DNA of 64,000 nt from Phlegmacium glaucopus (lineage: Eukaryota > Basidiomycota > Agaricomycetes > Agaricales > Cortinariaceae): positions 57,498-121,497 of the forward strand of contig MU130264.1 in assembly GCA_015039465.1 (NCBI GenBank), given 5' to 3'. This document shows positions 4,018 to 61,093 of this stretch, piece by piece; position 1 is the stretch's first letter, and each line of letters starts with the position of its first letter. The position numbers and the translations under genes were made by a program. The notes under the pieces are model-generated. The model saw only the letters and a list, made by a program, of their open reading frames with translations, was not told the DNA's origin and ran no database searches.

Positions 4018-5644
4018 ATGACTTTGCCCTTGGTAATTGTCGATGACACCAATCCCAATATTCAATATTTCGGCCCTTGGTTTACAGCTCAAAACACACA
4101 GAATGATACAGGGAATTTTGGAATGCCTTTTCAAAATACTCTACATGGCGTCAGTGTCGATGCAAACCTTTCTTTTGCTTTCAGTGGTATGTCTCGACTC
4201 TCGATGGCTGGTTTGCTTTCGAGCCCTTTCTTGACTTTATTGTCATTTCAGGATCGGCAGTCAATGTTCTCGGGACAAGCATAACAACAAATGCTTCTGG
4301 CTCCCAAGTTCCAACCTGGGAGTGTTTTGTCGACAATAACAGCATCGGTTGGAACATTGCGTGTGGTTCTGGAGAGAACAACTGCGTCTTTTGCCAAAAT
4401 GGCCAATTACAGGATGGACCCCATGTGCTCAGTGTGCGAGCAAAGGTTTCGAACCAGCAAACCTTTTGGTTCGATCAGATTCTATATACTCCATCCTCCA
4501 ATATCTCACTGGACCAATCGCTTCTGCGCATCGACTCAAGCGACCCAGCAATGCAGTATAGTTCTGGATGGCAACCGTTCCGTGACTTCGTGAATCTAAC
4601 TCAGACCACGGGGTCAACGCTTACATACGACTTTTCTGGTTCGTAATTGGTGTATTGATGAGCCTGAATGTCTGAATGTCAAGGTTTTTAGGTGTTTCCC
4701 TCTCTTGGCTCGGTTTTACTCCTGCCGGTTTCCCCCCCAATTCATCATCGGCGACATACTCCATTGACGGTCAAACGCCGACCCCATTTCTGGTTCCAGC
4801 CTTGTCCTCTAGTACTGCACTGGAACTTTATAATCGAATATTATTTGTAACCGCGAAACTGTCTCCTGGACACCATACACTCGTAGTTACACATCAAGGC
4901 AACTCTAGCACAGCGCCTCTTGCATTCGACTACTTTGTTGTACAGGATGGACCGTCTACTTCGACGTCTTCTTCAAGTAACGCTCCTAGTCATACTACCA
5001 TCTCTTCCAGTACTCCAGCGAGTAGTTCGACTACCACGAATCATACAGGGGCTATCGTCGGTGGCGTTATAGGCGGGCTCGTCGTGCTCTTACTTCTGCT
5101 ATTCCTGTTCCTCTTCATTCGCAGACGTAACAATCGGCGTGCACTGAACAACTCTGACGTTCCTTCTTATATCGTAGACCCTTTCATTGTCGCCCCCTCA
5201 GATCTCCACCCAACCTCTACTTTGCTATCCCAGCCCTATACTTCAAATGCCCAGTCCCCCACCCCGCCGACGACCTCTGGCAAATTCACCCATAGGAGTT
5301 CACCCTCCGACGCCCCGAGCACATCCAGCAACAAGATATCCACATCCCCTCCAACTAATGCAAGCTCTGCGTCGGGAGACGCAATCCCACCTTTGACTAC
5401 ATTACAGGTTCGCTCTTCATCACCGCTAATCACCTCTTCTTCACCACCTCGTCTGCCTTACGCTGGGCCGCAAACCGAAAGTTCGATGACTCAAGTTCGA
5501 GAGGCCGAAACCGAACCGGTCCACTTGAGGCAACGATCAGCGTCCTCACGAGACGGTGATCCTATATTCTTGCGGCATGAGGACAGTGGAGTTCGTATGC
5601 CAGCCGCTGTAGTCGAATTACCGCCATTGTACACACTTGGTTGA
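4018..5644 (+). CDS. Single-pass Ser/Thr-rich transmembrane protein, copy 1
   Basis: Three exons are visible: 4018 to about 4184, 4250 to about 4641, and 4692 to 5644. The introns have GTATGT and GTTCGT donors. The first two exons encode an extracellular beta-rich region (VDDTNPNIQYFGPWF; later a WECFVDNNSIGW-type segment). The third adds a TYSIDGQTP repeat, a Ser/Thr-rich linker, one transmembrane helix (GAIVGGVIGGLVVLLLLLF) with a following RRRNNRR stop-transfer, and a disordered proline/serine-rich cytoplasmic tail ending in ELPPLYTLG. No classical signal peptide precedes the first ATG. This topology resembles AXL2/SKG6-type fungal wall-sensor-like proteins, but the function is unknown. 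Two paralogues lie at 23828 and 29829. Confidence 0.85.
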
Positions 5645-5852
5645 GGCTCCTTCGTTTTAAATAACGCATTGTCTTTTTTGCATCTTTCGCGTCATCCTTT
5701 TTCTCTTTTCATTACGACACGAAATAAATAGGAATGTTTGAAGTACTTAACGTACGAAATGGAAAGAGATGTCAATTTCTATCCGTATCATTTATAGTGT
5801 CGTTTACTAACCAGATTTGCCTCACAAACAACTCGAATACAATCAAGTAACA

Positions 5853-11961: not shown

Positions 11962-14900
11962 CTAACGAATAAAACATTCATGCCATGAGGGTCCTAATTT
12001 GCTATTCCTAAAAGAAATTGTTGCAGAGCCATGCCGAGATATAATGAGGATGTTCTGTGGACGACGCAGGACATTGCGAACAGTTGACGGAATCCAAATG
12101 AGCCGTTTGGCATCAGACAGGATCCAGCCATCTTCATCCATGACCCATGAAGCATCAAGACCTAAGTTAGCCAACTCGTGTGCTGACTGGTCCTCAGACC
12201 GGGACACAATTTGGTTGCTATGAGGTGAGACCACAGCCGAGTTGATGTAGCTGGTGTGACCTTGGAGCTGCTCGCCCATCTTCGCATCCCACACCCGCAC
12301 CGACTGGTCAGCAGACCCAGAGACGATTTGGTTGCCGTCCGGTGAGAACGCGACCGAGTAGACATCATTGGTGTGACCTTGCAGCTCCCTCAGCAGCTCG
12401 CCCGTCTTTGCATCCCACACCCGCACCGAGTGGTCATCGGACCCAGAGATGATTAATTTGTTGTCAGGCGAGAATGTAACCGAGTTGACCCGTCCGGTGT
12501 GACCTTGCAACTCCCTCAATTGCTCGCCCGTCTTCGCATCCCATACCCGTATCAACTGGTAAGACCCAGAGACGAATTGGTTGTTGTCAGGTGAGAATGC
12601 GACCGAGTTGACCCGGTCAGTGTAAACTTCAAGTTGAAACTCCCTCAACTGCTCGCCCGTCTTCGCATCCCACACCCGCACCAACTGGTCATTATGCCCA
12701 GAGATAATTTGATTGCTGTCAGGTGAGAATGCGACCGAGGCGACACCCCTGTTGGGACCTTGCAACTCCCTCAGCTGCTCACCCATCTTCGCATCCCACA
12801 CCCGCACCGACTGGTCATAAGACCCAGAGACGATTTGGTTGCCATCAGGCGAGAATGCGACCGAGGTGACCTCATCGGTGTGACCTTGCAATTTCCTCAG
12901 CTGCTTGCCTGTCTTCATATCCCATACCCGCACTGATCGGTCAACAGACCCCGAGACAATTTTGTTGCCATCAGGCGAGAATGCAACCGAACTGACCGGC
13001 CCAGTGTGACCTTGCAACTCCCTCAGCTGCCCGCCTGTCTTTGCATCCCACACCCGCACCAACCGGTCATCAGACCCAGAGATGATTTGGTTGCTGTCAG
13101 GCGAGAATGCAACTGAGTTGACCTCACTGGTGTGACCTTGTAACTCCCCAGGCCTCAGCTGCTCATCCGTCTTCGCATCCCACACCTGCACTAACAAGTC
13201 TTCTGAACCAGAGATGATTTGGTTGCCATCAGGCGAGAACGCGACCGAGTTGACCCAATTGGTGTGACCTTTCAGCTCCATGAGCTGCTCGCCCATTTTC
13301 ACGTCCCACACTCGCACTGAGTAGTCATTGGACCCAGAGACGATTTTGTTGCCATCAGGCGAGAACGCAACCGAGTTGACCCATCTGGTATGACCTTCCA
13401 ACTCCCTCAACTGCTCACCCGTCTTTGCATCCCACACCCATATCGACCGGTATGACCCAGAGATGATTTGGTTGCTGTCGGGCGAGAATGCAACCGAGGT
13501 GACCCCGTTGTCACCTCGCAGCTCTCTCAGCTGTTTGCCTGTCTTTGCATCCCACACCCGCACCGACCGGTCATAAGACCCAGAGACGATTTGGTTGCCA
13601 TCAGGCGAGAACGCGACCGAGTTGACATCATCGGTGTGACCTTTCAGCTCCATAAGCTGCTCGCCCATTTTCACGTCCCATACCCGCATTGATTTGTCGT
13701 AAGACCCAGAGACAATATTATTGCCATTGGGGGAGAACGCAACCGAGCTGACCAACTCAGTGTGACCTTGCAACTCGCTCAACTGCTCGCCCATCTTTGC
13801 ATCCCACACCCGCACCAACTGGTCACCAGACCCAGAGACGATTTGGTTGCCGTCAGGCGAGAATGCAACCGAGCCGACCCCACCAGTATGACCTTGCAAC
13901 TCCCTTAGCAGCCTGCCTGTCTTTGCATCCCACACCCGCACCAACAGGTCACCAGAGACAATTTGGTTGCCGTCAGGTGAGAACGCGACGCAGGAGATTT
14001 CAGCCATAGCAGTCATAGTCAGTAATGATACTGTGATAGTACCCCTGGGCAGTGAAATTGATGGCATAAATGCAAACCGGGGCCTCCAATGTGTACAGAC
14101 TGGTGAATCTTGAGACCATGTTAACAGCGCTGAAATGTACAAATGCGGAGTTGATTTCGATGCAGGACTACCTGCAAAAAAGGTCGAGAAATTTGCAGCG
14201 TCTGTTAAGTACCTCAGCAGGTCTGGATATTGCTTTCCCTGGGATATGACTTTTGAGATAGGTTCTGTTTCACAATAGGCAACATATTTCTTACCCTCTT
14301 GACCCAGTCTTCAGCATCCCTCAACAACGGCGAACACTCAGATTTGGTGTCAATAAGATTCATGGCTTCAATCCAGAATAGTAGTTTGTCATACATGAAC
14401 TTGTTGAGGCAGAGGAACAGGTCATTGGTGTCGTTCTCTGCAGGTGCTGCTCGCGATAGGTGCCTAGCCCAGTGCCGTGAAGCATATCGTAGAGTAGGCG
14501 TGAGTTGTTTGTGCTTCCGATCATTGAGCTCAGGCACATCGAAATCAAAGATGTATGACGAGTCAAGGTCACACATGTTGAAATGTAACAATTTCTGCAT
14601 AATGGAGAAGCACTGACAAGCCAGGACGGCATGATGAGCAGACACATCGCAGCATACATCAATATCACGGTTTGGATAGTTTGATTGGGGGGAAATCCTG
14701 AACTTCGCTCGTTCTTGATCGAAGATAAAGTCAGGAAATGAAGTATGGTACCAGTAAACACAGTTATCTTTGGAAGAAACAAACAGGACAGCGTGTAGAG
14801 AGTCCACGACTGTCTTGACCGTATCCTGATCTGTATCACTGAGGTCGGCTAGAACGGACATGTTGATACTGCTTTCTGCGCAGAGGACTGTATGGAGGAT

Positions 14901-28159: not shown

Positions 28160-28945
28160 CAATCCGAAACCTCTGCCGGCAATTCAGCATTTGACCCATG
28201 ATGATTACTAGTAGCTCTCGAGTTTTATTCCTCTATTTTCGCATAATTGTAATGTCCTAAGCGCCACCGTCAAATTGTCCTACAACCGTTTTCCCCTACA
28301 GGTCGGTAATGCGCTCAAAGTCGATCTATTGCTGACCTGCCTATGGTCCATAACCGTAACGAGTCGATTGGTAGTGCTACTGAGCTGGAGCCTGGAGCGG
28401 GATAGGACGTCGACATACCAGACACATACTGAAATCGAGTAAACAATGTTGGACGTACTATTGGTAGGCTTGGACTTCCTACTACTACTACGATGCCACA
28501 CTACTACGATGCCACACTACTACGATGCCACACTACTACGATACCAGTGACGAGCATTGGGCTAACTTCGTCGTTCAATGAGGACGCACAGGCGTGGATC
28601 GATATACCCTGATTTACTGGGACAGGTATGGCGAACACGGTGACCTGTGCAAGGAAAGATACAACGAGCACGAGAGACAGGGTAATAAGAATTATGCTTA
28701 TTATCCCATCTCTCGTTCTGGAACCTTTTTGGGAGTGAATCTGTTGACATAAATTAATAACAATGATAATGAAGTTACCTGAACAGAGCTAAAGGGTTGA
28801 AGCTTTTTGAACCCTTTCCTCCGTTCAGAATCGAGGCAGCTCACCGGGCTATGACCCTGGTGAGAGTCGAAATTATAGCGACCAAGACATCCATTCTGCA
28901 TGGAGTTTTCGACCTGACGAACCCACTATTAGTATCATACCATTG
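28160..28945. repeat. Copy 3 of the duplicated non-coding block (truncated)
   Basis: It is collinear with 7500-8140 and in the same orientation, including the AGATACAACGAGCACGAGAG stretch and the hairpin near 28680-28708. A 70-80 bp insertion lies near 28730-28805. Homology ends at about 28945, after ACCATTGAGAGGCTA. No gene is visible. Confidence 0.75.
28486..28546. repeat. 16 bp minisatellite, about four copies
   Basis: The unit ACTACTACGATGCCAC is repeated about four times. The paralogous positions near 130 and 7800 carry a single related CCTACGATACCAC, so the array expanded only in this copy. Confidence 0.9.
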
Positions 28946-56509: not shown

Positions 56510-57399
56510 GCCAGGCGACACATACCTATATATTTACTTATGAACATCCATCTGCACGACGGCCAGGATGGAGCGCTGATCTAGTGTACAATTCCCCTGC
56601 ACTTTTACTTCATGGCTCCGTAATATCTGCCCTCCTGTGGTATATATTTGATGGAGACGTTTGGCCTTACGTGTCTCTCACCCTAGGTACATACCCTAGC
56701 TGATAAGAACACCTCTCCATTCATTTCTTTATCTTTAATGATCATTGTATGGTGGCACACAGATTGCAGTGTAATATAATATGCTTGGTGAGAGGCTGAT
56801 AGAGAGATTCTTAGAATTGCCAACTAAAAAATTGCACCTTCAACCATATTGGTAATACAGGATAGCAGAACTTTGCACCAGGAAATGCTGATGGATGAGT
56901 GATGTACATTATAATAATCAGGAAGGTGTTTTAGTTTCCAAAGGTTTCTCAACCTGAAAAATCTCCATAAATGCCCAAAATGTGGGAACCTGGACAATTT
57001 TATGTCAATTTTCCTGGAAACCTTCTCATATAAAAAACAGTGCATTATTTCAACTTTTCATGTAACTGATAGTAACAATTGTGAGGTGGTAGTAAGTTGT
57101 AACAACTTTAGTAGGACAACACTAAAAGGGAATCAATGATCATATAAAGCCTTCCATGTAAAATTGACCTATAAATCATCACAGATGGAATTTTACAAAA
57201 AAAAAAAAATTAATAAGGCTAGTACTACCATGCAAAGCATCAGCCCATAATAGAACTCATAATCACAGTGATACTGTATAGTAGAAATTTCAGATAATGC
57301 AGAATTCTGAATCCAATGATCTACTCTCTGAACTCCCAACATTGAAACATCCCTTGCTGGATGGAGCAGGAATCCACATGCATTTCATCTGGAAAACAG

Positions 57400-58235
57400 T
57401 ATTATAAGGAAGATATCATAATAGACACACTCAGTGACTCACCATCACTGAGTTCTTGCATTCCAGATGTTGAGTTGTCTGAAGCCTGATTAATAGCATT
57501 AAGCATAACATATATTGTGGTATAATGATAGAGAAAGGAACTCACAAACTGCAATGTGGAAAGGGAGCAATGTTGTCAGCTAAGGATGACAGTCAGGTCA
57601 GAGAACACTTACATTCTGTGATGCAGACAGAAGCCATTGCTGTGAGCTAGACAACATCCAGGAGGACAGTGGACTCACAAGCTGTGAATCACATGATACA
57701 GAGAGAAATTGTCAGCTATGGGTGAGATCTAGGAGGAAGCACTCACATAATCTACTTGCATTGTATCTGAATGTTCATGTTATAATCACAAAAATGGAGG
57801 TATTGTGAATAGACATTCACCATCACTAAGTTCTTCAATCCTAGATGTTGAGTTGTTTGAAAACTAATTAGTAATATTAAGCATAGAAATATAACAAAAT
57901 GATAGGGAAAAACACTGACAAACTGTAATATGGAAAGAGGATATTGTTGTCAGCTAACAAAGACAGCCATGTCAGAGAAAACCTACACCCTGTGAGGTTG
58001 TTGTAGTCAGATAGGGATGACAGCCAGGAGGAATCACTTACAGAATCCACATGCATTGCATCTGAATGACCATATCATAATCAAGATAAGTAGAGTCTAC
58101 ACAGACAAACTGACCATCACCCAGTTCAATTCCAGATGTGTTGGGAGCCTGATTAGTGGAATTTAGCATAGAATGGTAGGGATGGCAGCATGTGAGAGAG
58201 CACTCACATCCTGCAATGCAGAAAGAGGGCATTGT
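57400..58235 (-). repeat. Three larger modules with 36 nt and 20 nt exon-like segments
   Basis: A module of roughly 350 bp recurs about three times. On the minus strand each has a segment between an AG acceptor and a GTGAGT-like donor containing ATCTGGAATGCAAGAACT or its variant, and a 20 nt segment with ATGCAATGCATGTGGATTC between CAG and GTAAGT/GTGAGT. The same modules also include 3 nt spacers of the neighbouring array. Copies diverge by substitutions and indels. Confidence 0.6.
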
Positions 58236-59830
58236 TGTCAGCTAGGGGTGACAGCCTGGAGAGCACACTCACATCCTGCAATTGTCATCAGCTAGGGATG
58301 ACAGCCAGGAGAGGAAGCACTCACCCACTGCAATGCAGAGAGGTCATTGTTGTCAGCTAGGATGACAGCCAGGAGAGAGAGCACTCACACTCTGCAGTGC
58401 AGAGACACATTGTTGTCAGCTAGGGATGACAGCTAGGAGTGAGAGCACTCACATACTGCAATGTAGAGAGACATTGTTGTTCTCAGTTAGTATGACAGCC
58501 AAGAGAGAGAGAGAGCACTCACACTCTGTAATGCAGAGAGATAACATCATCATCAGCTGGGAATGACAGTCAGGAGAGAGAGCACTCACCCACTGTGATG
58601 CAGAGAGAGTCCATTGTTGTCAGCTAGGGTCCTAGAGATGACAGTCAGGAGAGGAAGCACTCACCCACTGCAATGCAGAGAGACATCATTCTTGTCAGTG
58701 AAATGACAGTCAGGAGAGGGAGCACTCACCCACTTCAATGCAGAGAGAAGCCTTTGTCATCAGCTAGGGATGACAGTCAGGAGAGAAAGCACTCACCCAC
58801 TGCAATACAGAGAGAGATCATTGTTGTTAGTTAAGGATGACAGCCAGGAGAGAGCACTCACATTCTGCAATGCAGAGAGAAGTCATTGTTGTCAGCAGTG
58901 ACAGCCAAGAGAGAGAGTGCTCACAAACTGTAATGTAGAGAGATTTATTGTTATCAGGTAGATGACAGACAGGTGAGAGAGCACCCACAAACTGCAATGC
59001 AGAGAGACATCATTGTTGTCAGCTAGCCTAGAGATGATGGCCAGAGAGAAAGCACCCACAAACTGCAATGCAGAGAGACATCATTATTGTCAGCTAGGGA
59101 TGATGGCCAGAGAGAGCACTCACATCCTGCAATGTAGAGAGACATCATCCTTGTCAGCTAGGGATGACAGGCAGATGAGAGAGCACTCACATCCTGCATT
59201 TCAGAGAGACATTATTGTTATCAGCTAGGGATCACAGCCAAGAGAGAGCACTCACAGCCTGCAATGCAGAGAGAGGCAGTTATTGTCAGCTAGGGATCAC
59301 AGCCAGGAGAGAGAACACTTACATGCTGCAACACAGAAAGAGGACATTGTTGTCAGCTAGCCCAGGAGATAGCCAGGAGAGAGAGCACTTACATCCTGCA
59401 ATGCAGAAAGAGGTCACTGTTGTCAGCTTGGGGTGACAGCCAGGAGAGAGCACTCACATGCTGCAATGCAGACAGAGCCCATTGTTGTCAGCTGGAGATG
59501 ACAGCCAGGTGAGAGAGCACTTACAATCTGCAATGCAGAGAGACATTATTGTTGTCAACTAGGGATCACAGCCAGAAGAGAACACTCACAAACTGCAATG
59601 TAGGGAGACATCATTGTTGTCAGCTGGAGATGACAGCCAGGTGAGAGAGCACTCACATCCTGCAATGCAGAGGGACATTATTGTTGACAACTAGCAATGA
59701 CAGCTGGGAGAGCACTCACAAACTGCAATGCAAAGAGACATCATTTTTGTCAGCTGGGGATAATAGCCAGGAGAGCACTCACATACTGCAATTCAGAGAT
59801 ATCATTGTTGTCAGCTAGGGGTGACAACCA
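57541..59830 (-). repeat. Tandem array of intron-like units separated by invariant 3 nt spacers
   Basis: On the minus strand each unit runs from a GTGAGT-type donor through a CTGAC/CTAAC-type branch point and a pyrimidine tract to a TGCAG acceptor, 50-75 nt in all. Between one acceptor and the next donor there are exactly 3 nt in about 25 successive units (59783 down to about 58210) plus a few at 57546-57700. The 3 nt vary (TTT, GAT, TGG, TAT, AGT, AAT, ATT, CAT, GCT). Donors vary only among GTGAGT, GTAAGT, GTGGGT and GTGAGC. It looks like single-codon exons between repeated introns; a plain minisatellite is the alternative. Confidence 0.7.
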
Positions 59831-59995
59831 GGATTGATTTTAATTACTGACTATTATTCTTGCCACCTCAAGGCTTTTTCTAACAGTCTCTCTTAAGATG
59901 ACCATGTCTGGCCTGAAATGCAATATTTGTTCTATATTGCCAGGTGCTGCATCATGAACCACAGTGAGTCTTTTTCTACTGCTTTTATGAAGGCC

Positions 59996-61093
59996 ACTCA
60001 CATATCTGATCTTGTAGCCTTGCATGGAAATTTATAATATTGAGACCCTATGATGAACAAGTTAGTACACATTTCATGGTTTTATTTTGCCCAGTGATTA
60101 TATATTACCCTCTTGTTACCTTCTTTGGAACTTGCTAGCAGGCCATATGATTCAAGGAGAATAACATCCACAAGAAGTCCATAGTTTGGAGAAAATATAG
60201 GTAGGTCCCAAAGTCTTGACCAACTCCACTGTAACACATTGAAGGGGCTTGTGCTGAATATGTCCTACAATTTCACAGTTTTTTCTTCTTTCAGATATAT
60301 ATCAATATAAGTACTCACCATTAATTGAAAAAACTGAGCAATGGTCAGTTAACATCCTGAAAGGATGGCAGAAATTCAATCAATCAGAACATACAGAGGC
60401 TACCTTTATTATTTCCAAGTCTGCACCACTTCCAATGAAAAGGTTTGACAAGGACAAACAACCTGCAGAAATGCAATCAATGTGAGGGACACAGAAAATT
60501 TGTAGGCTACACTAATACCACCAGAAAGGACAATAAATCGGTCACCATCCTCATTGTCAATAGAAGTTCCGAGGAACTGGGATATATATGGCTGACGGGC
60601 CAGTCTTTATAAGTAGTATGTGTCAGAAATTTTGAAATGGTAAGGGAAGGCAATAAAACTCACGGTGATTTGGCAAACTTCAGATGATCGTAAAAAATAT
60701 CTTCCCTATCCCGGTACCAATGGATGCGATACATTTTAACACGCGAGGTCAATGCCATTGGTTCCATCTCCATGGTCACAGTGCCGGTGGAACTGGTATG
60801 TAGAAGTTGCAGTGTTTGCTGATCGAAGTCGACCCATCGGTACTTATTCCACTTGAACGTAGTCAGTTTTTGGACAGTAGTCACTCGATCTTACGTACGT
60901 GAGATGACTTTTCCCTAGAATTAACGATCATATTTCCATGAACGATAGTGAATGTGCCTTGGTTGATGTTGACCCCATTTGCGTTGGTAAAGAAGGCGCC
61001 ATACGATGGTGACTGAGAGCCTTCGGGTAAACCATGCGTTGGATTGGCAAGTTGTTGGTCGTTCACGAGTTCGCTGGATAACAAGCGATTCAT
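59996..61093 (-). CDS. 5' exons of an unrecognised intron-rich gene leading into the array
   Basis: Exon 1 from ATG 61093 (MNRLLSSELVNDQQLANPTH) carries a GAFFTNANGVNINQGTFTIV motif, common at the N-terminus of agaric NLR-like and related proteins. After a GTACGT intron comes WNKYRWVDFDQQTLQLLHTS to HLKFAKSP, ending at a GTGAGT donor at about 60661. Further down, clear short exons follow: one with CLSLSNLFIGSGADLEI (about 60410-60470), one ending in INGEYLY-type sequence near 60320, a 157 nt exon with DIFSTSPFNVLQWSWSRLWD (about 60113-60270), and a 50 nt exon at 60002-60052. The next donor leads into the micro-exon array. No catalytic domain is recognised. The 3' end is unknown, possibly near 56.8 kb. 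Confidence 0.5.

Follow-up and report, generated by a model that had tools for sequence, protein, structure and literature searches.

We found that a gene on the minus strand of Phlegmacium (Cortinarius) glaucopus DNA carries 25 consecutive putative exons of exactly 3 nt each, and that such an array occupies the same gene position in all seven copies found in the genome. These single-codon exons are likely to be real, to be joined by the splicing of short introns, and to have multiplied by tandem duplication of a frame-neutral unit made up of one intron and one codon.

An array of predicted 3-nt exons in one gene

A first-pass annotation of the window (the whole stretch of 64,000 nt that was analyzed) had proposed about 25 single-codon microexons at positions 57541 to 59830, and our analysis bears this out. 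In a chain search, in which an AG lying 40 to 94 nt from a donor is followed by a short exon and a usable next donor and the best-scoring choice is taken, we delimited a main array of 25 introns and 25 single-codon exons (positions 58208 to 59851, minus strand). It lies inside an unbroken run of 26 donors from 59851 to 58207; groups of two and three more 3-nt exons bring the number to 30. The constant gap of 3 nt between acceptor and next donor, which had been noticed in the first pass, recurs in 25 of 25 window exons even when any exon length from 0 to 12 nt is permitted. Intron lengths had been said to vary by more than 20 nt; they range from 49 to 72 nt in the window array and from 49 to 73 nt across all copies. 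Tandem Repeats Finder reports the window array as a 67-bp repeat of 23.4 copies with 77% matches. Elsewhere in the window, positions 12266 to 13983 hold a 126-bp repeat (42 codons, 13.7 copies) that resembles WD40 repeats by eye, and positions 28484 to 28546 hold a 16-bp tandem repeat (3.9 copies, 97% matches).

The main array sits after exon 8 and is read in phase 0, a frame that is fixed by the upstream gene model and that carries on from exons 1 to 8 across the array and into the motif exons described below. Codons 1 to 13 of the window copy are TAT TTT GAT TTT ATT CAT GAT CAT GCT GAT GAT TTT TTT, and codons 14 to 25 are TTT AAT TGG TGG TGG TGG AGT TAT AGT TGG GAT GAT; together they translate to YFDFIHDHADDFFFNWWWWSYSWDD. 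The predicted mRNA reads ...GCAAGAATAATA (the end of exon 8), TATTTTGATTTTATTCATGATCATGCTGATGATTTTTTTTTTAATTGGTGGTGGTGGAGTTATAGTTGGGATGAT, and GCTCCCAACACATCTGG, in this order. Phase 0 and one other phase are open, as originally described, while the third phase of the window copy has 7 stops. The first array donor after exon 8 is GTCAGT in all seven loci. Another candidate for this donor, GTAAYT (GTACTT in the copy named L015 below), was rejected for GTCAGT because it places the codons in a phase with stops.

Structure of the window gene

The window gene extends on the minus strand from 61093 to 57321, with 44 predicted exons and a predicted product of 388 aa. Its eight 5' exons were obtained from the alignment of the seven gene copies. 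Exon 1 (195 nt; 60899 to 61093), which includes the start ATG, is open and aligned in the paralogs. It is followed by exons 2 (188 nt; 60664 to 60851), 3 (86 nt; 60519 to 60604), and 4 (68 nt; 60395 to 60462), by a microexon of 15 nt encoding FFQLM in frame (exon 5; 60319 to 60333), and by exons 6 (156 nt; 60109 to 60264), 7 (46 nt; 60002 to 60047), and 8 (95 nt; 59852 to 59946), the last of which ends ...ATA in phase 0. The seven 5' introns measure 47 to 61 nt, and the 55-nt intron after exon 7 differs in length among the paralogs. Joined, exons 1 to 8 are an exact match to the first 283 residues of a deposited model, P0001. Exon 5 has 15 nt in 7 of 7 loci, and its counterpart is kept in three spliced-looking proteins of other species (P0006, P0007, and P0013; see below). 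The deposited models P0004 and P0005 omit this exon.

The exons 3' of the main array were assigned by reading rather than by a program. Two motif exons, A1 (34 nt; 58115 to 58148) and B1 (20 nt; 58042 to 58061), precede the single-codon exons GGT (57987 to 57989) and TTT (57920 to 57922). The counterpart of the former is GAT in L010, L011, L012, and L014 and AAT in L013, and that of the latter is TTT in L010 to L013 and CTT in L014. After motif exons A2 (43 nt; 57821 to 57863) and B2 (20 nt; 57747 to 57766) come the single-codon exons CTT (57679 to 57681), AAT (57613 to 57615; GAT in L010, L011, and L012), and TTT (57546 to 57548), then motif exon A3 (43 nt; 57443 to 57485) and the last exon (68 nt; 57321 to 57388) with the stop TAG, at which P0001 ends identically. 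The five extra 3-nt exons, read on the minus strand, therefore start at 57989, 57922, 57681, 57615, and 57548, and ordinary exons (34, 20, 43, and 20 nt) lie between them and the main array. The 3' parts of the copies contain three or four motif exons A (31 to 43 nt); after each of these comes either an exon B of 20 nt or the last exon. Interspersed among these motif exons are further 3-nt exons, 27 in the 3' parts of six copies, and several of them stand, by reading, at matching positions between motif exons across copies.

Pfam returned no family for the spliced window-gene protein and, for 15 aligned relatives, two families only, with one member each (E values of 0.065 and 0.13). One PDB sequence search gave no match, and another gave four chance-level matches. 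The AlphaFold model of P0001 is poor (mean pLDDT of 43.4), so that the 5' domain of about 283 aa has neither a Pfam family nor a confident structural model.

Seven copies of the gene

A similarity search of the P. glaucopus genome (60.5 Mb, 259 contigs) returned 161 matches, and the counts of loci given here are among the matches listed. In addition to the window copy (L009), we found six further loci with the same array: L010 on contig C67, L011 as a second locus on C93, L012 on C41, L013 on C17, L014 on C209, and L015 on C241. L011 lies on the window's contig, about 50 kb away and on the opposite strand, and has 31 single-codon exons. Homology among the copies extends to both sides of the array for at least about 3 to 4 kb, with about 80% identity, and because it continues past both array ends, it indicates a duplicated gene. 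Among the matches listed, the array unit was matched at no place in the genome other than the seven gene copies. Protein searches of the genome gave matches at these seven loci alone; the exception is a 110-bp DNA match on contig C151 to part of the 5' region (one of eight matches).

From L009 to L015, the consecutive array exons number 25, 24, 31, 28, 32, 19, and 22. The total of 181 over the seven arrays is made up of 180 3-nt exons plus a single 6-nt exon, every length being a multiple of three, and the longest unbroken run of 3-nt exons per copy ranges from 16 (L013) to 31 (L011). Since a broken site leaves a gap of double length that the chain search cannot cross, no unit was skipped. With 0 to 12 nt allowed, other exon lengths appear solely past the arrays of L010, L011, L012, and L015, plus the 6-nt exon of L013. 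The latter (GATGTT before GTGAGT) could be read as GAT and a weak donor, GTTGTG, but this donor was not accepted by the scoring. The L013 array also includes two consecutive GC-AG introns with GCAAGT donors (oriented positions of about 5480 to 5690).

The frames of the eight 5' exons are open from the start position in six of the seven copies; five have ATG there, and L014 has GTG. The start chosen in the deposited model P0005 differs from this position of the aligned copies. L015 is without a start, and its matching frame is open. The joined sequences of L009, L010, and L012 reach the terminal stop. That of L011 does so as well, but the acceptor AG of one of its B exons has been lost. In L013, a B exon close to the end contains an in-frame TAG, and L014 has a frameshift in the last exon in addition to the GTG that replaces its ATG. 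L015 looks like a truncated copy: its array breaks off into other sequence near oriented position 5532, and no 3' gene end was found on its contig. Between all seven copies, dN/dS over the eight exons is 0.31 to 0.86 (dS, 0.19 to 0.35), which indicates that the gene copies are constrained, some of them weakly.

Splice sites are conserved and codons are free

Donors and acceptors were counted in the 174 body introns of the seven loci, from which the first introns are excluded. The donors comprise 133 GTGAGT, 17 GTAAGT, 6 GTGAAT, 5 GTGAGC, 4 GTGGGT, 3 GTTAGT, 2 GTCAGT, 2 GCAAGT, 1 GTAGGT, and 1 GTGTGT. They are usable types throughout, in agreement with the early observation that all donor changes lead to other valid donors. 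The acceptors (159 CAG, 7 TAG, 5 AAG, and 3 GAG) end in AG, as had been expected. The claim that every unit has a CTRAY branch point stands for 154 of the 174 introns and fails for the other 20: one has CTCAC, and in 19 no CTNAY was found, most of which carry weaker forms, such as TTGAC.

A test set beforehand asked whether splice sites are more conserved than the rest of the unit. We aligned 173 units (the total of 181 minus seven first introns and the unit with the 6-nt exon) over 67 columns and compared each with its nearest neighbor, which gave 153 pairs. At G1, T2, A-2, and G-1 there are 0, 2, 0, and 0 substitutions, a total of 2 against a base-matched expectation of 69.5 (P of about 1e-27, an approximate value; as the units share ancestry, this and the other figures in this section overstate independence). 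In 53 disjoint pairs, GT/AG substitutions number 0 versus 22.9 expected. Both of the observed changes are T to C and give GCAAGT donors, that is, GC-AG introns; GC donors are a known functional type. The 56 ordinary intron columns have a mean of 16.5 substitutions; the first codon base has 42 and the second 52, more than any other of the 67 columns. None of 101 indel events falls inside AG-NNN-GT, where 6.4 (outside CT tracts) to 10.6 (uniform) would be expected. The frozen GT and AG next to the most variable codon bases imply that exon length and splice sites are held and that the residue is free.

Stops in phase 0 occur in 0 of 180 exons, with 8.2 expected from the position composition; per phase, the seven loci have 0, 3, and 42 stops. 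No exon starts with GT (17.8 expected), 6 end in GT (17.0 expected), and 2 end in AG (13.6 expected, about half of which would be stops), whereas exons starting with AG show no avoidance (3 versus 2.8 expected). The deficits of GTN, NGT, and NAG exons look as if competing splice sites had been purged. The residues of the array segment are mainly F, D, L, W, and N.

Array turnover and CpG depletion

The units are not collinear between paralogs (Spearman coefficient, -0.02), and within a locus, a unit has its best match most often three units away (25 of 173) or in the adjacent unit (21 of 173). The lack of collinearity and the nearby best matches indicate that the arrays are reshaped as single units, or short blocks of them, are duplicated in tandem.

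No CG occurs in the window between positions 56672 and 60538 (about 3.9 kb), and the flanks are normal; this stretch begins inside the gene and finishes beyond it. Over the seven arrays, 7 CG remain in 12,005 bp, an observed/expected ratio of 0.011 compared with 0.85 for the window. In each copy, the CG count drops 600 to 800 bp before the array, and isolated CG remain in some. The depletion suggests loss of methylated CpG and thus heavy past methylation of the gene body. Such loss, if it occurred, would account for the lack of array codons with a final C, since a C before GT forms a CpG.

Deposited models and sequences of relatives

Our searches turned up deposited P. glaucopus models for L009 to L014, a single one per copy, but none for L015. 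Automated annotation overlooks the main array, which is absent from all six: P0001 and P0002 jump over it, P0003 and P0004 break off within its first intron, and P0005 and P0010 end upstream of it. According to the cited passages of one paper, very small exons are easily missed by annotation and read mapping (PMC8831610), and on this account the absence of the array from the models is weak evidence, although these models are the sole annotation evidence from P. glaucopus.

Three proteins of other species are encoded by short contigs (P0007, 352 aa in 1110 bp; P0013, 281 aa in 1324 bp; and P0006, 336 aa in 1273 bp) and are uninterrupted across the positions of several ordinary introns, from which we infer that the contigs are probably spliced RNA. 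In P0007, the last 20 or so residues of exon 6 are missing; beyond its exon-8 equivalent comes a 36-residue tail, YKKDFEFDDELFDLDFFLDDFFFKEDELFDLDFFFG, in which F and D are abundant. When the composition of this tail is compared with that of the single-codon exons, the log-likelihood is +0.44 per residue, and the best of all 36-residue windows in three domain sequences scores below it (-0.04). The tails of P0006 and P0013 score -0.43 and -0.42, like ordinary domain windows. In P0013, about 47 residues after the exon-8 equivalent are followed in frame by STSKIEELSDDEMDIGS, the counterpart of motif exons A and B, and DF adjoins STSKIEELSDDEMDIGS, as the GAT and TTT exons give in L010, L011, and L012; at two residues, this correspondence is suggestive only. 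Taken as spliced sequences, these contigs indicate that the mRNA of relatives carries a segment of such a kind in the predicted frame; it may be split into single codons there. The constraint within the arrays and the spliced-looking contigs together argue that the codons are included in P. glaucopus mRNA.

The tails of P0007 and P0013 show no likeness to translated arrays (347 and 151 of 2000 shuffles were as good), as expected if the introns had been removed. For the P0006 tail, WMVDMISWGVSLLLAFIYGLY, we rejected a reading in which nine codons precede an array intron that was retained: 654 of 2000 shuffles were as good when the tail and two preceding residues were compared with array frame translations, and 1221 of 2000 for the putative intron part. 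Another sequence, P0017 (a 1231-bp contig of another species), ends KSI-YFLCIAG. Of the seven residues of YFLCIAG, six agree with the translated 3' ends of array introns, a likeness equaled by 5 of 2000 shuffles; for the longer stretch KAIKSIYFLCIAG, 19 of 2000 shuffles were as good. This end, which was noticed post hoc, is a hint, as if a relative's transcript had kept a homologous intron piece. Family members are annotated in Flammula alnicola and Hebeloma cylindrosporum. A scan of viral contigs with P0007 gave no match.

Alternative explanations

The array might be one long intron, about 1.7 kb in the window, that is removed whole or silently, so that the 3-nt pieces never enter mRNA. The models P0001 and P0002 do join sequence across the array, and skipping it keeps the frame because all donors and acceptors share phase 0. 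However, such an intron would leave the conserved AG and GT, the exact 3-nt length, the absence of stops, and the avoidance of GTN and NAG without a reason; the seven 5' introns of the window gene are 47 to 61 nt long; and where such an intron would leave no residues, P0007 has 36 and P0013 about 47. We regard this explanation as improbable, though it deserves more weight than the two that take the array for a product of repeat or transposition processes. One of these, a minisatellite that merely resembles introns and whose units are unspliced, was raised in the first-pass annotation and would fit a tandem repeat with about 77% matches and the turnover that has left the units non-collinear. 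It would not account for constraint so uneven, with the splice dinucleotides frozen while the bases between them vary most and with indels missing from AG-NNN-GT, nor for the frame-open, motif-linked gene structure of the paralogs, and its probability is very small. Equally improbable is the other, an introner-type mobile intron inserted many times in one place, also proposed at the outset. The introns are many and near-identical, but among the matches listed the unit is undispersed and confined to seven copies of one gene, the tandem order accounts for the copies, and the codons flanking an intron are identical in just 32 of 174 neighbors over the seven loci (7 of 24 in the window), so that a 3-bp target duplication is not the rule. 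Ratchet-type recursive splicing, a further early suggestion, relies on sites in which an acceptor AG directly abuts a donor GT, leaving a zero-length exon; although length 0 was allowed in the search, no zero-length array exon was found.

A different possibility, compatible with single-codon exons rather than exclusive of them, is variable inclusion, in which any donor is joined to any later acceptor in frame and many protein versions arise. The units are in phase 0 and frame-neutral, no columns vary more than the first two exon bases, and schistosome microexon genes use tiny symmetrical exons in this way, as far as the cited passages describe them (PMC4350168). Near-perfect splice sites would fit constitutive splicing equally well, though, and the column variability may just reflect absent constraint; we would give variable inclusion perhaps one chance in a few.

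Comparison with known systems

Schistosome microexon genes and aphid bicycle genes appear, from the portions of the literature cited here, to be nearest in kind to the array, with lone 1-nt exons marking the lower size limit. The former have very small frame-neutral exons and belong to multicopy, fast-evolving families (PMC4350168). The likeness lies in tiny symmetrical exons in series, 180 of 181 being 3 nt here and one 6 nt; as described in those portions, the differences are that their coding region is mostly small symmetrical exons, whereas the main array is 75 of 1167 coding nt, and that the host here is a fungus and the introns form a tandem repeat of about 67 bp. Aphid bicycle and megacycle genes have many tiny internal exons, more than 100 microexons in megacycle genes (PMC9168663). 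By that partial account, bicycle internal exons are almost all in phase 2, while here the exons of the array and of the motifs begin in phase 0 or phase 1, and the array, unlike bicycle genes, combines phase 0 with 3-nt exons and near-identical introns.

Microexons of 1 to 15 nt in plants and fungi (APC11, VPS55, and CYP621A) demonstrate, in the cited passages, that 1-nt exons are spliceable (PMC8831610, PMC12940212), and a figure panel there is given over to a pair of neighboring microexons, 5 and 12 nt long (PMC8831610). The plant and fungal examples in these passages are lone, whereas 19 to 32 tiny exons are consecutive here. Near-identical intron families also occur in fungi as introner-like elements and stwintrons, in the portion of the source cited (PMC9860276). 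In comparison with that description, the array introns are undispersed (among the matches listed) and tandem within one gene, unlike introner-like elements, and each has its own uninterrupted donor and AG, unlike stwintrons. Among the matches listed in searches of titles and abstract beginnings of the open-licence literature, we found no report of an array of consecutive single-codon exons.

A model for splicing and growth of the array

According to the explanation that we prefer, in which the single-codon exons are real, the array would be the coding part of a multicopy gene, and each 3-nt exon would supply one phase-0 codon. Each piece of about 64 nt would be an ordinary short GT-AG intron that is removed through intron definition, which is usual in fungi; array introns of 49 to 73 nt with good donors, branch points, and acceptors fit this mode. 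Because an AG and the next GT are just 3 nt apart, neighboring introns could hardly be bound by splicing factors simultaneously, and intron removal is probably serial or alternating, one codon being joined per step. The array would change in length when units of about 67 bp or blocks of them are duplicated in tandem, whole codons being gained or lost with the frame kept. Selection would act against stops and against changes to the splice sites or to the 3-nt length, and would leave the amino acid nearly free. The predicted outcome is a variable segment of 19 to 33 residues between the domain of about 283 aa and the NSTSGIEELSDDAMHVDS-like motif repeats. Any combination of array codons stays in frame. 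That the segment is a hypervariable peptide built codon by codon, with serial or variable splicing and possibly many versions per cell, is a speculative extension of this model, and we think it rather unlikely.

Significance

Exons of 1 to 3 nt are difficult to detect, and few are known, according to the cited passages (PMC8831610). The arrays of the seven P. glaucopus genes each string together 19 to 32 tiny exons, and apart from a single 6-nt exon every one of them measures 3 nt. Splice-site factors usually have a footprint longer than such an exon. If the arrays are spliced as read, the spliceosome would join exons below this footprint tens of times running. The arrays would then be an extreme test of exon size and crowding, and models of exon definition and intron definition would become directly testable. 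A tandem intron repeat of this kind would also provide a route to altering the length of a protein by single residues.
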